DNA of 64,000 bases from Synechococcus sp. JA-3-3Ab (lineage in GTDB: Bacteria; Cyanobacteriota; Cyanobacteriia; Thermostichales; Thermostichaceae): the NCBI RefSeq assembly GCF_000013205.1, contig NC_007775.1, positions 2,687,001 to 2,751,000 of the forward strand, in the 5' to 3' direction. Below the pieces are notes generated by a model. The model had not been told where the DNA came from and made no database searches. It saw nothing but the letters and a program-made list of their open reading frames with translations. Below are positions 11,736 through 47,600 of the stretch, one piece after another. Every line of letters starts with the position of its first letter. The first letter of the stretch is position 1. The position numbers were made by a program, and so were the translations under genes.

Positions 11736-11805
11736 CGGTGGGGCCTATTCTCCAACCGCTTGCCCTACACCGTCCAGCTTGAGCCATGCTGAATGGCTGC
11801 TTGGT

Positions 11806-12423
11806 ATGGCTAGATATGTAAAACCGAGAGAAGCGGCGGATTATTTTGGGGTGTGTCTCCACACCTTGAGGCGATGGGAACAGAAGGGCTGGATCCATGC
11901 AGTACGTACACCATCCGGTAGGGCGAGAAGGTATGACCTTGACAGCTACATTGGCCTCCGGCCCGCTGACGCGAACAGAGCGCCCAAGAAGGACAAACGA
12001 GTCGTTTTGTACGCCCGAGTCAGCAGTCGAGGGCAGAAACCAGACTTGGAGAGACAGATTGCAAGACTGGTTGACCTCTATCCTGGAGCCGAAGTGGTCG
12101 GAGAGGTTGGCGGCGGTCTCAACTTCAAAAGGCCAAAGTTCCTTGCCTTATTGGAACGAGTTCGTGCGGGAGATGTCGGAACAATTGTGGTCGCTCACCG
12201 GGATCGACTCTGCCGGTTTGGATTTGAGTTCGTTGAGTGGTACTGCCGTCAATACGGGTGCGAAATCTTGGTTCTCGATGACGATCACCTTTCTCCCCAG
12301 CAGGAACTGGTTGAGGATATCCTCACCATCCTGCACTGCTTCAGCAGTCGGCTCTACGGACTCAGAAAATACCGGGCTGCAATCGAGAAAGATACGGATT
12401 TATCCGGAGCCAGCGCTGGCTAA
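11806..12423 (+). CDS. tnpA: IS607-type serine recombinase TnpA
   Basis: 205 residues. The N-terminal MerR-like HTH (YVKPREAADYFGVCLHTLRR, about 4-23) is followed by a small serine-recombinase domain with catalytic Ser in VVLYARVSSRGQK (about 67-79), plus DLERQ and VVAHRDRLCRFGFEF. Start ATG 11806 corresponds exactly to the start in copy 2; the frame is open further upstream but not conserved there. Between HTH and catalytic domain lies a GLRPADAN linker encoded by a repeat-like sequence (11953-11976). Confidence 0.9.
   Translation: MARYVKPREAADYFGVCLHTLRRWEQKGWIHAVRTPSGRARRYDLDSYIGLRPADANRAPKKDKRVVLYARVSSRGQKPDLERQIARLVDLYPGAEVVGEVGGGLNFKRPKFLALLERVRAGDVGTIVVAHRDRLCRFGFEFVEWYCRQYGCEILVLDDDHLSPQQELVEDILTILHCFSSRLYGLRKYRAAIEKDTDLSGASAG
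11953..11976 (+). repeat. Small GC-rich repeat inside IS607 tnpA, copy 1
   Basis: GGCCTCCGGCCCGCTGACGC plus GAAC; resembles the reverse complement of the repeat at 16051-16077 and encodes GLRPADAN in the TnpA linker. Both IS607 copies carry it. Confidence 0.5.
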
Positions 12424-13558
12424 AGTCTGGAAGCGGTGGCAAGCGGCGTGCCGGTACTGCTACAACCAAGCGATTGCCTATCAGCGTCAGCATGGTGCCC
12501 CAAAAACGGCCAGAAAGCTGCGGGACATCATCCTGCGCTCCGATTTACCTCAGTGGGTGAAGGACGTCCCTTGTCACATCAAGCAGAACGCGGTCGTCGA
12601 GGCGTGGTTGGCGTTTCGCCGAAGCAAAGACGCGAGGTTTCGCAGTGTGCGGGACAGGTCGCATACGCTGCAATTCAACGCCGGCAACTTTCGCAATGGG
12701 ACGTGGTATCCGAAACTCACCCGAGGTTTGGCGTTCCGTGCATCCGAGGAGATGCCCAGAGAATGGGCACGTGGAACTGAGCTAATGCGGGTGAAAGACA
12801 GATGGTATGCCATCTTCCCTGAGCCCGTGAACGAGCAGTGTTCGTTAGCAAAGGGGGTGATCGCACTTGATCCTGGAGTAAGAAGCTTCCTTACAGGGTT
12901 TGATGGGGCGGGCTTTGTAGATATCGCCAAGGGAGACTTTGGCAGGATCGTTCGGCTGTGCTACCACCTAGACGATCTGCAATCTAGGCTGAGTAAAGCA
13001 CCGCGACCCAAGCGTAGGCGAATGCGGCAAGCGGCGTTTCGTCTGCGGGAGAGAATCAGGAACTTGGTGGACGAGTGCCATCGCAAGGTAGCGGCGTTCC
13101 TAACGGATAACTACCGATTGATATTCCTCCCCACTTTCGAGTCAGCCAAGATGGTTGCCAAGGCAGGGAGGAAGTTTGGTAGCAAGACAGCAAGGGCGAT
13201 GCTCACCTGGGCGCACTATCGGTTCAAGCAGCTCCTGAAGTTTCAAGCCAAGAAGAAAAACGTGGTTGTCGTGGAAGTATCGGAAGCGTACACCAGCAAA
13301 ACCTGTACCAAGTGCGGGCACATCCACACTAAGTTGGGTGGCGCAAAGGTGTTTCGATGCCCAAAGTGCAACCATAGGCTACCACGAGATTGGCAAGGCG
13401 CTCTGGGTGTTATGCTCAGGGCTTTGCGGGATACCGCCTTTCTGTTTGGACTCCGTCCCGCTAACGCGGTCGCGTCAGCATCGCGTAGTGACAACGGAAA
13501 CGGACAGAATGCTATCGCTTCACCGCTGAGCAGTAATGCTCAGCAGTGTTCAGCGTAA
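12278..13558 (+). CDS. tnpB: TnpB RNA-guided nuclease of IS607 copy 1
   Basis: Overlaps the tnpA end in another frame. Protein-like sequence begins near KIRIYPEPALAKVWKRW (about 12385). The in-frame ATG 12278 is the nearest orthodox start; the open frame further upstream only mirrors tnpA. RuvC-type residues are Asp in IALDPGVRSFLTG, Glu in LPTFESAKM and Asp in PRDWQGALGV, with the zinc ribbon CTKCGHIH/CPKC between the last two. The family are guide-RNA-directed DNA nucleases. The tail contains GLRPANAVAS, matching the ~27-nt repeat family. All expected catalytic residues are visible. Confidence 0.82.
   Translation: MTITFLPSRNWLRISSPSCTASAVGSTDSENTGLQSRKIRIYPEPALAKVWKRWQAACRYCYNQAIAYQRQHGAPKTARKLRDIILRSDLPQWVKDVPCHIKQNAVVEAWLAFRRSKDARFRSVRDRSHTLQFNAGNFRNGTWYPKLTRGLAFRASEEMPREWARGTELMRVKDRWYAIFPEPVNEQCSLAKGVIALDPGVRSFLTGFDGAGFVDIAKGDFGRIVRLCYHLDDLQSRLSKAPRPKRRRMRQAAFRLRERIRNLVDECHRKVAAFLTDNYRLIFLPTFESAKMVAKAGRKFGSKTARAMLTWAHYRFKQLLKFQAKKKNVVVVEVSEAYTSKTCTKCGHIHTKLGGAKVFRCPKCNHRLPRDWQGALGVMLRALRDTAFLFGLRPANAVASASRSDNGNGQNAIASPLSSNAQQCSA
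13448..13468 (+). repeat. Small GC-rich repeat in tnpB tail, IS607 copy 1
   Basis: Encodes GLRPANA and resembles the other ~27-nt repeats. The equivalent site in copy 2 (24188-24208) differs at several bases, encoding GLRPSSA, in an otherwise near-identical stretch. Confidence 0.45.
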
Positions 13559-13578
13559 ATGTATCAGGTTGCTCTTCT

Positions 13579-14987: not shown

Positions 14988-15053
14988 GTTCCTTACCCTC
15001 CAAGCGCAAACGGCTGGCTAGCCTGGATTGACATACTCCCCGCCCTAAAGGGC

Positions 15054-15079
15054 ATTCGCGACAGCGGGCCGTAGGCCGA
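15054..15079. repeat. Small dispersed repeat (copy a)
   Basis: Inserted in the end hairpin of the tnpB element: without it the sequence would read CCCCGCCC-TAAA-GGGC followed directly by GGATTCTCG. Related to copies at 15421 and 16051. Confidence 0.6.
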
Positions 15080-15186
15080 GGATTCTCGTTCTTGGTTCCA
15101 CGAGCGCACTTACCATGTCAGGTTGCCCCTTCATGGCAGCGGTGCCACCCTCCCCAAGCGTTCCCCCTTGCGGGGCGGTTCCCTCC

Positions 15187-15211
15187 TCGCGCCAGCGGCG
15201 GGGAGCGCTTT
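15187..15211. repeat. Small dispersed repeat (copy b)
   Basis: TCGCGCCAGCGGCGGGGAGC followed by GCTTT. Lies in the 3' part of the tnpB pseudogene, downstream of its catalytic Asp. More divergent than the other copies. Confidence 0.45.
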
Positions 15212-15416
15212 GCCCTGAGGTACCGTTCCACACCATGCCTAAGAGTTCTAGACCTCGGCGCAAGATGTTGAGAGCGGCGTTGTGGTCGCGACACAGCACC
15301 AGACCGCAACGCGGGCATCGGTGTGTGCGAGTGGATAAAGTCTTCTTCACCAGGTAGCCGCACCTTGAACACTCCTGGGTGGTGTACTCCGGCGGCACGG
15401 CAATCGCCACCTTGCC

Positions 15417-15443
15417 AATCGCGTAAGCGGGACGTAGTCCTTA
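15417..15443. repeat. Small dispersed repeat (copy c) with 9-bp flanking direct repeats
   Basis: 27 nt lying between two copies of CACCTTGCC (15408-15416 and 15444-15452). It adds an in-frame TAA to the tnpB pseudogene on the minus strand, between DYYGKV and AIAVPPEY. Confidence 0.7.
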
Positions 15444-15498
15444 CACCTTGCCGTAGTAGTCCAGCCACCCGGTGAAAATGCTCCCTGCGGCATCCTGG

Positions 15499-15525
15499 AA
15501 AGTGCTCCGCACCGCTAACGCGAAC
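15499..15525. repeat. Small dispersed repeat (copy d), in frame
   Basis: Adds the peptide SFALAVRSTF to the tnpB relic between HHLAK and QDAAGSIFTG without breaking the local reading frame. Confidence 0.65.
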
Positions 15526-15597
15526 GACTTGGCCAGATGATGGTTCTTGACCAAGTTCTGCACCTGCAAGTCCTCATACACCACGATGTCGTGAGAC

Positions 15598-15625
15598 AAA
15601 GCGCTCCGCGCCGCCGAAGGCGAAC
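15598..15625. repeat. Small dispersed repeat (copy e), causes frameshift
   Basis: Lies between the FARC and SHDIVVYEDL blocks of tnpB, which are in different frames on its two sides. Orientation is opposite to copies g and h. Confidence 0.65.
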
Positions 15626-16050
15626 ACCACGCACCGGGCAAATTTGATTGCCCAGTCTCTACGCTGGCGTTGAACCTTGAGGTGCAGCTTGCCAAGACGT
15701 TGTTTCTGCTTGAGATAGTTCTTGGACTGTTTCTGAATGCCCTTTCTAAACCGGCGACTCAACCTCCTTTGGTGTTTTTTGAGTCTACGTTCAGCACGGC
15801 GCAGAAACTTAGGGCAACTGACCTTGTTGCCGTGTTGGTCGGTGTAGAAGTGCTCCAGCCCTAAGTCAAGGCCGATCACGTTGCCGGTGTACTGGCTCTT
15901 TTCCCTGCGCTCAAGGTCAAGGCAGAACTGGGCGTAGTACCCATCTGCTCGTCGGATAACCCGCACCCGGTTGATTTTGGAGCTGAGGATGAGTTTCCTG
16001 GCCTCCCCGTTGCAGTACAGGGCAAAGGTGCCAGCCTGGTTGCCATCGGT

Positions 16051-16077
16051 GTTCGCGTTAGCAGGCCGTAGGCCTTA
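16051..16077. repeat. Small dispersed repeat (copy f), introduces stop
   Basis: 27 nt flanked by GGT on both sides. On the minus strand it begins with TAA directly after GMSIT of tnpB; coding resumes with TDGNQAGTFALY after it. Confidence 0.68.
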
Positions 16078-16149
16078 GGTGATGGACATTCCATCTGCCG
16101 ACAACTTCCACCCAGATTGCTTGTACTCCACCGGGCGGCAGTTCTTTTT

Positions 16150-16175
16150 GCTCGCGAAGCGGCGCGGAGCGCTCA
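16150..16175. repeat. Small dispersed repeat (copy g), introduces stop
   Basis: GCTCGCGAAGCGGCGCGGAG plus CGCTCA. On the minus strand it places a TGA after KKKGYPQ of tnpB; coding resumes at KKNCRPVEYK. Confidence 0.68.
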
Positions 16176-16460
16176 CTGGGGGTAGCCCTTCTTCTTCTCA
16201 CCATCACGACAACGGCGGTAGAAGTTGGAGATGGCTGCCCAAGCTCCCTCTGCACTGGCTTGCCTGGCTGTTGAGTTGAGCTTGGCAGCAAACTCAAACT
16301 CCTGGGCCAGATGCTTGCAAAGAGCGTACAGCTCCTTCTTGCCCACGCTTTGATTGTCCATCCAATAGTGCAGGCATTTGTTGCGCACACACTGCGCTGT
16401 GCGGATGGCTTCATCCAAAGCTTGGTACTGGGCTGGCACTCCATGAAGGAGCTTGGCTTC

Positions 16461-16487
16461 CCTCGCTTTAGCGGCGCGGAGCGCTTT
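16461..16487. repeat. Small dispersed repeat (copy h), in frame
   Basis: Shares the core AGCGGCGCGGAGCG with copies g and i. It encodes ALRAAKARE at the tnpB N-terminus. Confidence 0.62.
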
Positions 16488-16598
16488 GACGCGCATGATG
16501 CTAGTTTATCAGGGGAAACCTTGGATAAAATGCTGCGCCTTACATCCCCACCTTCAAAGGCGGGGCCTTACGGCACTTTTTGGTAGAAGGAGGGTCCC

Positions 16599-18455: not shown

Positions 18456-18980
18456 AAACGGTTTGGATAAAGACACAGAGGATACTAGTCTTGCAGGATC
18501 CCCAGAAACTCAAAACTCACTCTAGGCCCTATCTCTCAGGTGGATTTCTGAGGCTTCCGGCCAAGGGATCAGGCCACCTCGGTCAAACTTGAACGGCCTC
18601 GCCGTTCCTGAGGAGATCGAGTTTTGTTGCTTCAAATCGGGTGGGGATAAAGTCGAGTATGTAGTCACTCTAAACATCATGGTCTAAACATCATGAATGA
18701 AACCTTTCCGTCTGGCTCCCCTCTCCCTCTGGAAGAGGAGCTGAGGGTGGTCGCGGAAGCGGCGCGGAGCGTTTGGGCACGGTCTCCAGCAGGAATGTAA
18801 CTCGGAGATCCCAACTCAGGTGATCCGGATCAGCGCAAGCCTTTGGTCGGGGGAATAGGCTACAGTTATCCAAAAAGATAACAAAAGATAACAATTTTGA
18901 CGAAAAAGACATCTTCTGCTTTTCCCAAGCTGACCTTTCGATATGCTGAAGCCGATCACAGGGAATGGAGGCACTGAACT
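18456..18980. other. 525-bp intergenic region with one small repeat
   Basis: No supportable gene. It contains one ~26-nt GC-rich repeat (18750-18775) next to a CCCTCTCCCTCTGGAAGAGG stretch, then an AT-richer stretch (18850-18960) before the FHA gene that probably holds its promoter. Confidence 0.5.
18750..18775. repeat. Small dispersed repeat (copy i), intergenic
   Basis: GTCGCGGAAGCGGCGCGGAG plus CGTTTG; nearly the same as copy g (16150-16175) but outside any mobile element. Confidence 0.6.
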
Positions 18981-22545: not shown

Positions 22546-23163
22546 ATGGCTAGGTATGTAAAACCGAGAGAAGCGGCGGATTATTTTGGGGTGTGTCTCC
22601 ACACCTTGAGGCGATGGGAACAGAAAGGCTGGATCCATGCAATACGTACACCATCCGGTAGGGCGAGAAGGTATGACCTCGACAGCTACATTGGCCTCCG
22701 GCCCGCTGACGCGAACAAAGCGCCCAGAAAGGCCAAACGAGTCGTTTTGTACGCCCGAGTCAGCAGTCGAGGGCAGAAACCAGACTTGGAGAGACAGATT
22801 GCAAGACTGGTTAACCTCTATCCTGGAGCCGAAGTGGTCGGAGAGGTTGGCGGCGGTCTCGACTTCAAAAGACCAAAGTTCCTTGCCTTATTGGAACGAG
22901 TTCGTGCGGGAGATATCGGAACGATTGTGGTCGCTCACCGGGATCGACTCTGCCGGTTTGGATTTGAGTTCGTTGAGTGGTACTGCCGTCAATACGGATG
23001 CGAAATCTTGGTTCTCGATGACGATCACCTTTCTCCCCAGCAGGAACTGGTTGAGGATATCCTCACCATCCTGCACTGCTTCAGCAGTCGGCTCTACGGA
23101 CTCAGAAAATACCGGGCTGCAATCGAGAAAGATACGGATTTATCCGGAGCCAGCGCTGGCTAA
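22546..23163 (+). CDS. tnpA: IS607-type serine recombinase TnpA, copy 2
   Basis: 205 residues. Differs from copy 1 at only a few residues (for example HAIRTP for HAVRTP, NKAPRKAKR for NRAPKKDKR). The MerR-like HTH, catalytic VVLYARVSSRGQK and the GLRPADAN linker are all intact. It should be as functional as copy 1. Confidence 0.9.
   Translation: MARYVKPREAADYFGVCLHTLRRWEQKGWIHAIRTPSGRARRYDLDSYIGLRPADANKAPRKAKRVVLYARVSSRGQKPDLERQIARLVNLYPGAEVVGEVGGGLDFKRPKFLALLERVRAGDIGTIVVAHRDRLCRFGFEFVEWYCRQYGCEILVLDDDHLSPQQELVEDILTILHCFSSRLYGLRKYRAAIEKDTDLSGASAG
22693..22716 (+). repeat. Small GC-rich repeat inside IS607 tnpA, copy 2
   Basis: Same position and sequence as 11953-11976 in copy 1, so it was present before the element duplicated. 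Confidence 0.5.
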
Positions 23164-24283
23164 AGTTTGGAAGCGGTGGCAAGCGGCGTGCCGGTACTGC
23201 TACAACCAAGCGATTGCCTATCAGCGCCAGCATGGTGCCCCAAAAACGGCCAGAAAGCTGCGGGACATCATCCTGCGCTCCGACCTACCCGAGTGGGTGA
23301 AGGACGCCCCCTGCCACATCAAGCAGAACGCGGTCGTCGAGGCGTGGTTGGCGTTTCGCCGAAGCAAAGACGCGAGGTTTCGCAGTGTGCGGGACAGGTC
23401 GCATACGCTGCAATTCAACGCCGGCAACTTTCGCAATGGGACGTGGTATCCGAAACTCACCCGAGGTTTGGCGTTCCGTGCATCCGAGGAGATGCCCAGA
23501 GAGTGGGCACGCGGAACTGAGCTAATGCGGGTGAAAGACAGATGGTATGCCATCTTTCCTGAGCCCGTGAACGAGCAGTGTTCGTTAGCAAAGGGGGTTG
23601 TTGCGCTTGACCCTGGGGTAAGAAGTTTCCTTACAGGGTTTGATGGGGCGGGCTTTGTAGATATCGCCAAGGGGGACTTTGGCAGGATCGTTCGGCTGTG
23701 CTACCACCTAGACGATCTGCAATCTAGGCTGAGTAAAGCACCGAGACCCAAGCGTAGGCGAATGCGGCAAGCGGCGTTTCGTCTGCGGGAGAGAATCAGG
23801 AACTTGGTGGACGAGTGCCATCGCAAGGTAGCGGCGTTCCTAACGGATAACTACCGATTGATATTCCTCCCCACTTTCGAGTCAGCCAAGATGGTTGCCA
23901 AGGCAGGGAGGAAGTTTGGTAGCAAGACAGCAAGGGCGATGCTCACCTGGGCGCACTACCGGTTCAAGCAGCTCCTGAAGTTTCAAGCCAAGAAGAAAAA
24001 CGTGGTTGTCGTGGAAGTATCGGAAGCGTACACCAGCAAAACCTGTACCAAGTGCGGGCACATCCACACTAAGTTGGGTGGCGCAAAGGTGTTTCGATGC
24101 CCAAAGTGCAACCATAGGCTACCACGAGATTGGCAAGGCGCTCTGGGTGTTATGCTCAGGGCTTTGCGGGATACCGCCTTTCTGTTTGGACTCCGTCCGA
24201 GTAGCGCGGTCGCGTCAGCATCGCGTAGTGACAACGGAAACGGACAGAATGCTATCGCTTCACCGCTGAGCAGTAATGCTTAG
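23018..24283 (+). CDS. tnpB: TnpB RNA-guided nuclease of IS607 copy 2
   Basis: About 421 residues from the in-frame ATG 23018, which overlaps tnpA. Catalytic blocks VALDPGVRSFLTG, LPTFESAKM and PRDWQGALGV and the zinc ribbon are intact. It stops five residues earlier than copy 1 (CAG to TAG, giving SSNA*). As in copy 1, the true start is unclear because the N-terminal frame lies over tnpA. Confidence 0.8.
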   Translation: MTITFLPSRNWLRISSPSCTASAVGSTDSENTGLQSRKIRIYPEPALAKVWKRWQAACRYCYNQAIAYQRQHGAPKTARKLRDIILRSDLPEWVKDAPCHIKQNAVVEAWLAFRRSKDARFRSVRDRSHTLQFNAGNFRNGTWYPKLTRGLAFRASEEMPREWARGTELMRVKDRWYAIFPEPVNEQCSLAKGVVALDPGVRSFLTGFDGAGFVDIAKGDFGRIVRLCYHLDDLQSRLSKAPRPKRRRMRQAAFRLRERIRNLVDECHRKVAAFLTDNYRLIFLPTFESAKMVAKAGRKFGSKTARAMLTWAHYRFKQLLKFQAKKKNVVVVEVSEAYTSKTCTKCGHIHTKLGGAKVFRCPKCNHRLPRDWQGALGVMLRALRDTAFLFGLRPSSAVASASRSDNGNGQNAIASPLSSNA

Positions 24284-44624: not shown

Positions 44625-47600
44625 TTAGGAAGGGGGGGGCAAAGGGATCTGCAGCTCCACCACTGTGCCGCTACCCAAGCGGCGGTTGCGCCAGGTGATG
44701 GTTGCCCCGATTAGCTCGGCTCGGTAGCGCATGTTGAGCAATCCATGGCCGTGGCCAGGTTTCTGATCGGGATCGATCCCACCGTTGAACTCCGGCATGC
44801 CACGGCCATCGTCGATGATCTTCAGCTCCAGGTGGGTGTAAGGGGCTTCGGGATTGACAGAAGGCTCCTCTGCGCCGCTACCGGCTTGAACCTTGGGCTG
44901 AATGGTGATGTCGATGCGCCGTGCCCCTGCGTGTTTGACGATGTTGTTCAGCGCCTCCTGCACGATCCGAAAGATGTTGCTTTGGCAGGCAGGGCTGAGA
45001 CGGGAGAGCAGGCCATCGGCGCGGTTGTCGAAGCGGGTGAGAAGCGGGTGAGGAGAACGCTGGGCCGCCCGTTCCAGAAGGCTGCGCAGAGCCGGGCCCA
45101 GGTTAAAAGCCCGCATGGCCAGCGGCTGCAGATCCTCGACGATCCCCCGCAACTCGGCCATGGTCTCCTGCAGTTGGACGCTCATGACGCGTAGCTGAGC
45201 CTGGCCGGCAGGGCTGAGGGTCGGATCGCCGGCGAGCTCCTGAATCTGACGAGACAGAGCTCCCAGATCCGCTAGGGTCTGATCGTGCAGATCGGCGGCC
45301 AGGCGACGACTTTCCGCCTCTCGCCCCTCGGTCAGCCCTTGCAAGGCTGCTGCCGTCGCCTCTTGACGGCGAACCTGCTCGTAGAAGGAGGCCCGCTGCA
45401 GCGCCACTGCCGCAATGTCCGCCAGCGCTTCCACCAAGTCCCTATCTGCAGGGGCAAATCCGGCGGCTTCGGGGGCAGTATCGGCAGTTGGAGGCTTCCG
45501 GCCTGCCGTCGCCAGGGGCGGAATGGAGGCGCAGAGCACACCCGCAATCTGGTTGGCATCGGTAACCAGAGGTACACACAGTAGGGAGCGGATGCCCTTC
45601 TGCAACAGCGTCTGGCGGGTGGGAAGGGGCAGCGGAAAGGTTTGGACATCGGGGATCAGCAGCGTGTCCAGATGGGTGTAGCAACTTACCCAAATGAGCT
45701 GGCTCAGCTCAGGGGTCAACGTCTGCCCCACCTGGGAAGGGATCCCCGGCTGACGGCGGTATTCCTGAAGAATGGCGAGGGGTTCTGGAGCCGCTGCAGG
45801 CTGTTGGGCGCTCGGCCCATAGCCGCTCCGCGGCGCCACAAAAGTACAGCGATCGACCTGCAAAACTTCCGCCATGCCCTCGAGGGCAATCTCTACCACT
45901 TGGTGGGGATCATAGGTGCCGCTGAGGCGCTGGGCGACCTGGCGCAACAAGCTTTCCCGCTGGGCCGAGATGCGGGTTTGCTCGTAAAGTTGCGCCTGTT
46001 GGAGGGCGATCCCCGCCTGCTCGGCCACGGCTTCCGCCAACTCCAGATCCTCCGGCTGCCAGGGGGATCCGCCGTGAGGGTAGCGCAGCAGGGCAATACC
46101 CCCCAACACTTCCTGTTGTCGCTGCGGCTGGTCAGAGGCAAACAAAGGCACCCACAACAGCCCGCTTCCCTGCCGCTGCGGCTTCAAGTCATCCGGCACC
46201 ACCACCGGCTCCTTCAAGGTGGTCAGCAGGCTGGCTGCCAAGCGCAACTTGGCCTGAACCGTTTCCGACAATTCCGGCGGGATCCCCGGCTCCGGCCAGG
46301 GCTTCTGGAGGGATCCCGTCAGCGGGGCATCCAGCAAGGGCTCCGTCCCGCTCACGCGCACGGCAGGGGTGAGCTCCGGCGCATAGATGCCCACAGGATG
46401 CAGCATCTCCTGTTCTGGCTGCCAAAGGGCCAAGATACACACATCCGCCTGAAAAGCCGCACCAATCTGCTGGGTAATCGCGTGGAAGAGAGTGGTGGGC
46501 TCCAGGCTGGAGCGAATTGCCGCTGTGATCGAGTGCAACAGCGCCAGCCGTTCCGCCTGCCGATGGGCCCGCTCAAACAGGCTGGAACGAGTTAGGGCAA
46601 TCGCCAGTTGGTAGGCCACCGAGCGCAACAGGTCAATCTCCTCCGGCTGCCAGGGGTGGGGTGTAGTTAGGTATACCCCCAGCAGCCCGATCATCCCCCC
46701 TGGCGCAGCAGCCAAGTCGGATCGGCCCGTCTGCGGATCCCTGCCGCCGGCTTCCCCCAGCCCGGCTCCTGCTGAGCCCACCGCTTGCAACGGGATCAGC
46801 ACCGCCGAGCGAGCCTGTAGCGCCTGGAAAGCGGCCAGTCCCTGCGGCGGCAACAGATGTTCCTGAGCCGGCTGCATATGCAGGGCTATTTGCACCACCT
46901 GCCCCTCCTGCAACCGCTCGCACAGCGAGCCAAAGTCTTGGATCCGGTACACCTGCCCCAGGGACGGGGCCAGCCCAGGGCTTAGGGCCTCGTGGGTGAC
47001 CTGAACCGTCTCCTGATCCGGGTTGATACTGTAAAAACAACAGCGGCTCAGCCCCTTCACCCCTTTCGAGAGAAAGGCGTGCTGCAGCTCCTTCAGGGCA
47101 GTGCTGACGATTTGATCCCACTGCAGAAAGCGGTGGACAGTGCTGGTGATGCGGTTGAGCAACGCCTCCCGCACCGCCTGTCGGCGGCTGCGCTCCAGCA
47201 GCTTGGCATTGATAATGGCGCTGGCCGTATAGGAACAAAGAAACTTCACTACTTCTACAAAGCTGGCCTCCAAGGGTGTCCGGCTCAGCAGAGCCAAAGC
47301 GCCCAGCCGCTCCTCCCCGCGGTTAATTGGGTAGGCGACAAAGCCCCGCAGGCCATTGGCCCTCACCCACTCCGGGGCAGGCATCCAGACCTCTTGATCC
47401 GGGTTGTTGCTCAAGAGGGGCAACCCTTGCTGGACCACACGCCCCATAGGGCTGTCATCGGGGTAGATTCGCTCAATTTGGGCGTGGGCAGGGCTGAGCA
47501 GGCCAGCATGGGCCACCGACCGAAAGCAACCCTCTTGCGGGTCGAAAAACCAGAGGCGAGCGGAGGCCACGCCCAGGCGGCTCACCATCTGGTGCACTAG

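Follow-up and report, generated by a model that had tools for sequence, protein, structure and literature searches.

A 24-nucleotide repeat that folds into two small hairpins has inserted eight times into a degenerate tnpB gene of a hot-spring cyanobacterium

We initially examined an insertion sequence (IS) in Synechococcus sp. JA-3-3Ab (NC_007775.1). The window, meaning the whole 64,000-nt stretch of DNA analyzed, covers positions 2,687,001 to 2,751,000 of a single 2,932,766-bp contig. The IS lies between a trmFO-like and an ackA-like gene and carries a degenerate tnpB on the minus strand. A Pfam search matched its pieces to OrfB_IS605 (PF01385, window positions 15574 to 15966) and to the Cas12f1-like TNB domain (PF07282, 15045 to 15410). 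In other members of the genus the trmFO and ackA homologues are adjacent (118 bp apart in the congener G292), so the whole IS is an addition. The features of this locus, with the elements in gene order, are as follows.

15027 to 16560, minus strand: IS with the degenerate tnpB (IS605 OrfB/Cas12f1-like TNB type); outer limits approximate.
16462 to 16485, plus strand: element 1, 24 nt; in frame, adds 8 codons near the tnpB start (open reading frame 16173 to 16496).
16151 to 16173, plus strand: element 2, 23 nt, with the triloop GAA in hairpin 1; brings a TGA stop.
16052 to 16075, plus strand: element 3, 24 nt, with a GGCC/GGCC stem; brings a stop.
15600 to 15624, minus strand: element 4, 25 nt, with a variant hairpin 1 (CGCC-TTC-GGCG); shifts the frame.
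15501 to 15524, minus strand: element 5, 24 nt, near-consensus TTCGCGTTAGCGGTGCGGAGCACT; the highest-scoring copy in the window.
15418 to 15441, plus strand: element 6, 24 nt, with a GGAC/GTCC stem; brings a stop.
15186 to 15209, plus strand: element 7, 24 nt, in the poorly conserved 3' part; the 24 nt are absent in the homologue of the sister genome.
15055 to 15078, plus strand: element 8, 24 nt, near the end of the IS.

The initial annotation had listed eight palindrome-like repeats of about 27 nt in this gene, some adding codons in frame and others bringing a stop or frameshift. All eight places hold a copy, within 1 to 2 nt of the starts proposed there, and the effects on the frame are as it described. 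However, the unit is 24 nt (one copy 23, one 25), and it is not a simple palindrome but two adjacent hairpins on one strand. The two sequence cores that the annotation distinguished are variants of one family, differing in the stem of the second hairpin. Covariance-model E-values in the window ranged from 2e-7 to 2e-3. The first core pattern, with up to 3 mismatches, gave 10 hits in the window against 0.44 expected by chance, and the second core gave 5 against 0.00. Eight copies in 1.45 kb has a Poisson p of about 1e-14 to 5e-11 for 137 to 400 copies per genome.

To examine if the repeats are insertions, we aligned the tnpB to intact relatives. An intact paralogue (429-aa open frame, 75% identity over the best-conserved part) lies elsewhere in the genome, and the nucleotide alignment shows that the window copy equals the paralogue plus eight inserts. 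The homologue in the sister genome (G177; 3,046,682 bp) lacks the same eight, so the direction is insertion. The outgroups tested also lack the units found at filled sites. The window contains further copies of the unit outside this tnpB.

11952 to 11975, minus strand: copy inside an abundant resident IS (TNB-domain ORF), in frame (LASGPLTRT in the protein); other copies of the IS show a 24-nt empty site.
13448 to 13492: nested pair, one element split by a second one in opposite orientation; an IS copy without the pair is exactly 48 nt shorter.
18750 to 18773, plus strand: copy inside a larger dispersed intergenic repeat, shared with G177.
22692 to 22715, minus strand: copy in a second copy of the abundant IS.
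24209 to 24232, plus strand: copy at the far end of the same second IS copy, with the same score as the inner element at 13469 to 13492.
46337 to 46360, minus strand: diverged copy, also recognizable in G292.

The abundant IS (window positions 11794 to 13573), with a Cas12f1-like TNB-domain ORF, is present in about 19 near-identical copies in this genome, and many copies of an abundant IS carry the nested unit. The larger intergenic repeat (approximately 18715 to 18775) reads CTCCCCTCTCCC...GGGAGAGGGGCTGGGGGTG, with the 24-nt unit or its relic at its end.

We next determined the distribution and structure of the unit. Its form is [N]TCGC-GNNA-GCG-NNNC-GKA-GNNN. Strict copies (TCGCGNNAGCGNNNCGKAG) number 91 in this genome and 333 (G177), 302 (G292), 117, 43, and 24 in the other five of the genus, with 0 for the pattern read backwards. 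Viral contigs gave 120 or more pattern hits, but about that many are expected by chance for 14.5 fixed bases, and they were not used. In 133 copies with unrelated flanks, the second hairpin pairs in 122, 123, and 126 cases at its three variable pairs, against 97, 62, and 55 expected from independent columns; the search pattern did not ask for this pairing. The first hairpin also has compensated variants: CCC-GNNA-GGG, CAC-GACA-GTG, and TGC-GCCA-GCA. A counted structure on 52 diverse units gave a covariation score of 0.545, against 0.140 for shuffles and at most 0.160 for slid versions, although these 52 were chosen for pairing and the 133 copies are the fairer test. Conversely, the loops stay constant. 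Tallied without asking for them, GNA was found in 264 of 282 second hairpins and GNNA in 241 of 282 first hairpins, and only 34 of the latter are GNRA. Control loops gave few double hairpins (14 to 15 per 242 to 294 hairpins, against 293 of 527).

To study mobility without using any pattern, we collected indels of 6 to 80 nt from alignments of about 730,000 columns between three genomes. Above 18 nt almost only two sizes occur, 24 nt (51 distinct) and 48 nt (9), against 0 to 5 for every other length from 19 to 80. Nearly all 24-nt cases are the unit, and the 48-nt cases are mostly one unit inside another or two in tandem. Within one genome, IS copies with 120 of 120 identical flanking bases differ by the unit, indicating a very recent copy. 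In the sister genome, copies of one IS tnpB carry different numbers of tandem units at exact 24-nt steps in the zinc-finger region (FRGSGPEA repeats; L126:13827, L131:7848, and L132:11917). Tandem copies might point to tandem-repeat slippage, which we considered together with ordinary coding sequence and assembly error. These readings are refuted by the indel spectrum and by the homologues that lack the units exactly; in addition, dispersed copies have unrelated flanks, and the same family occurs in six genomes and in other cyanobacteria. Together, these results make insertion and mobility near certain, and they support the proposal of the initial annotation that these are tiny mobile repeats like the small dispersed repeats (SDRs) of cyanobacteria.

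To define the target, we compared 41 independent filled/empty pairs free of tandem neighbors. The empty site reads C (26/41)-Y (37/41)-R (35/41)^A (35/41; P of about 4e-19). The net gain is 24 nt, in either orientation and without target duplication. For the 35 sites with A, the A is kept to the left of the unit in 8, kept to the right in 14, and replaced in 13, mostly by T, which is unexplained. A 1-bp target duplication of the A was considered and set aside because A on both sides is rarer than expected (about 1 of 80 among copies with unrelated flanks, against roughly 5), although this is not a strong test. The GC skew is flat and did not permit a test for replichore orientation bias.

The same architecture occurs in small numbers in other cyanobacteria. 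In 20 of 21 copies read, the base just before the unit is G. In two of these genomes, G213 and G255, some joined flanks restore a perfect GCGATCGC, i.e., the unit sits between nt 3 and 4 of HIP1, which is the position reported for SDR5 (PMC4390886). In the genus studied here, HIP1 is at chance level (2 per 64 kb) and the target is CYR^A, so insertion at HIP1 does not apply. In the JA-3-3Ab DNA, the octamer in excess is GGGATCCC (70 against 2.3 expected), reported as the top octamer of JA-3-3Ab and JA-2-3B (PMC4390886). The HIP1 position GCG^ATCGC and the CYR^A rule share Y-G^A.

Copies are disfavored in genes but common there: 57% lie in an open frame of at least 200 codons, against 81% of random positions. 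One copy adds eight codons to the gene for leucyl-tRNA synthetase, an essential gene. In this gene (the one strong match of each genome), three genomes carry the 8-codon unit (VRGSGTES in the genome designated G000), eroded by point changes in two, and three lack it. Other carriers by Pfam include a sodium/hydrogen exchanger, an ABC transporter, a carbohydrate kinase, and a dnaX-like protein. Because 24 is a multiple of three and most frames are open, many insertions survive as eight extra codons; in dispensable genes such as this tnpB they pile up.

We compared the unit with known repeats. The SDR4/SDR5/SDR6 group (Elhai et al., 2008, PMC2527708; see also PMC4390886) appears to be characterized by a length of 21 to 27 nt, dispersal, mobility, and nested insertions, which the unit shares. 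GTAG-tagged REPs (PMC3733652) are also short hairpin repeats in many copies, and a GTAG/GGAG string is present in the unit. However, REPs carry an unpaired GTAG tag at one end and are extragenic by definition, while here GKA is the loop of the second hairpin and many copies are inside open frames. Rickettsia palindromic elements, to which the initial annotation had also compared the repeats, likewise insert in frame in protein genes, including conserved ones, but they are about 150 bp with conserved peptides (PMC10969869), so the comparison holds for the effect and not for the element. MITEs are also nonautonomous and dispersed, but the unit has no terminal inverted repeats (its ends are TTCGCG and NNCT), no target duplication in 41 pairs, and is far shorter.

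The precise insertion, the target, the strand asymmetry, and the fold-conserving evolution indicate a 24-nt nonautonomous mobile element of the SDR kind. On the strand that reads 5'-CYR^A-3', the unit can fold into the hairpins NNN-GNNA-NNN and NNNC-GKA-GNNN. According to our model, which we consider somewhat more likely than not, the moving form is that strand folded as single-stranded DNA, protected and recognized through its two mini-hairpins, and pasted into transiently single-stranded DNA by an enzyme supplied in trans that cuts between R and A. The single-stranded DNA step is the uncertain part. In its favor, GNA and GNNA loops closed by G-C pairs are those of extraordinarily stable, nuclease-resistant DNA mini-hairpins (PMC4686876). 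Alternatively, a transcript could fold into the two hairpins and be reverse transcribed into a nicked target, the route that Elhai et al. appear to have favored for SDRs. The structured, strand-asymmetric unit with compensated stems and the lack of target duplication would fit this route, and RNA folding energies are as good as or better than DNA ones, so the fold alone does not choose DNA. However, we found no RVT_1 reverse transcriptase in any of the six genus genomes, with positive controls, although RVT_1 may miss a diverged enzyme. Moreover, the hairpin-1 loops are mostly GNYA and not the GNRA of stable RNA loops, and GNA triloops are a DNA mini-hairpin signature. We regard the RNA route as unlikely.

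No enzyme is tied to the element. A specific form of the single-stranded DNA route is that a Y1 (HUH) transposase of an IS200/IS605 element or a RAYT-like relative mobilizes the unit, as RAYTs are thought to do for REPs. Y1_Tnp matches were found in all six genomes, one with an intact frame in the copy-rich G177, and insertion without duplication at a short target and the hairpins would agree with this. On the other hand, in G292 and the congener G293 every long Y1 match carries an internal stop, although G292 has 302 copies, and the REP-type unpaired GTAG tag is absent. The resident IS605 copies, bounded by GTGAC.../...ATGG, do not show the CYR^A target, but the IS ends were read by eye and this evidence is weak. 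This possibility remains doubtful. It is also possible, but seems improbable, that no dedicated enzyme is involved and that replication or repair occasionally inserts the folded unit (template switching or capture of nuclease-resistant hairpin oligonucleotides), the unit being simply the sequence that survives best as a short single-stranded DNA. A length of 24 nt leaves no room for long recognition ends, and the nuclease-resistant loops, the varying tandem copies, and the one-base uncertainty at the junction would fit. Conversely, the sharp C-Y-R^A target and the constant 24-nt size suggest an enzyme with specificity, and nested copies are intact 24-nt insertions. More speculatively, an element of the smallest class of mobile DNA may move without reverse transcription, as single-stranded DNA folded into one GNNA and one GNA mini-hairpin, at a Y-R^A site common to the phylum; the HIP1 association of SDR5 would then follow from HIP1 containing CG^A. 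We put this forward only tentatively.

SDRs are already known as a kind of repeat. The presence in this HIP1-poor thermophilic lineage, the CYR^A rule, the 24/48-nt indel spectrum, and the absence of RVT_1 reverse transcriptases were not found in the literature examined, which did not extend to the primary description of SDRs. The unit is one of the smallest DNA elements known to spread, and how a repeat of 20-odd nt can do so has been open since SDRs were described. This genus gives a clean system, with hundreds of copies, closely related genomes with empty sites, a sharp target rule, and no RVT_1 reverse transcriptase, which bears directly on the RNA route. In the aligned DNA the unit accounts for nearly all indels of 19 to 80 nt, so it is a main source of structural change in these genomes and adds eight-residue segments to proteins, including the leucyl-tRNA synthetase.
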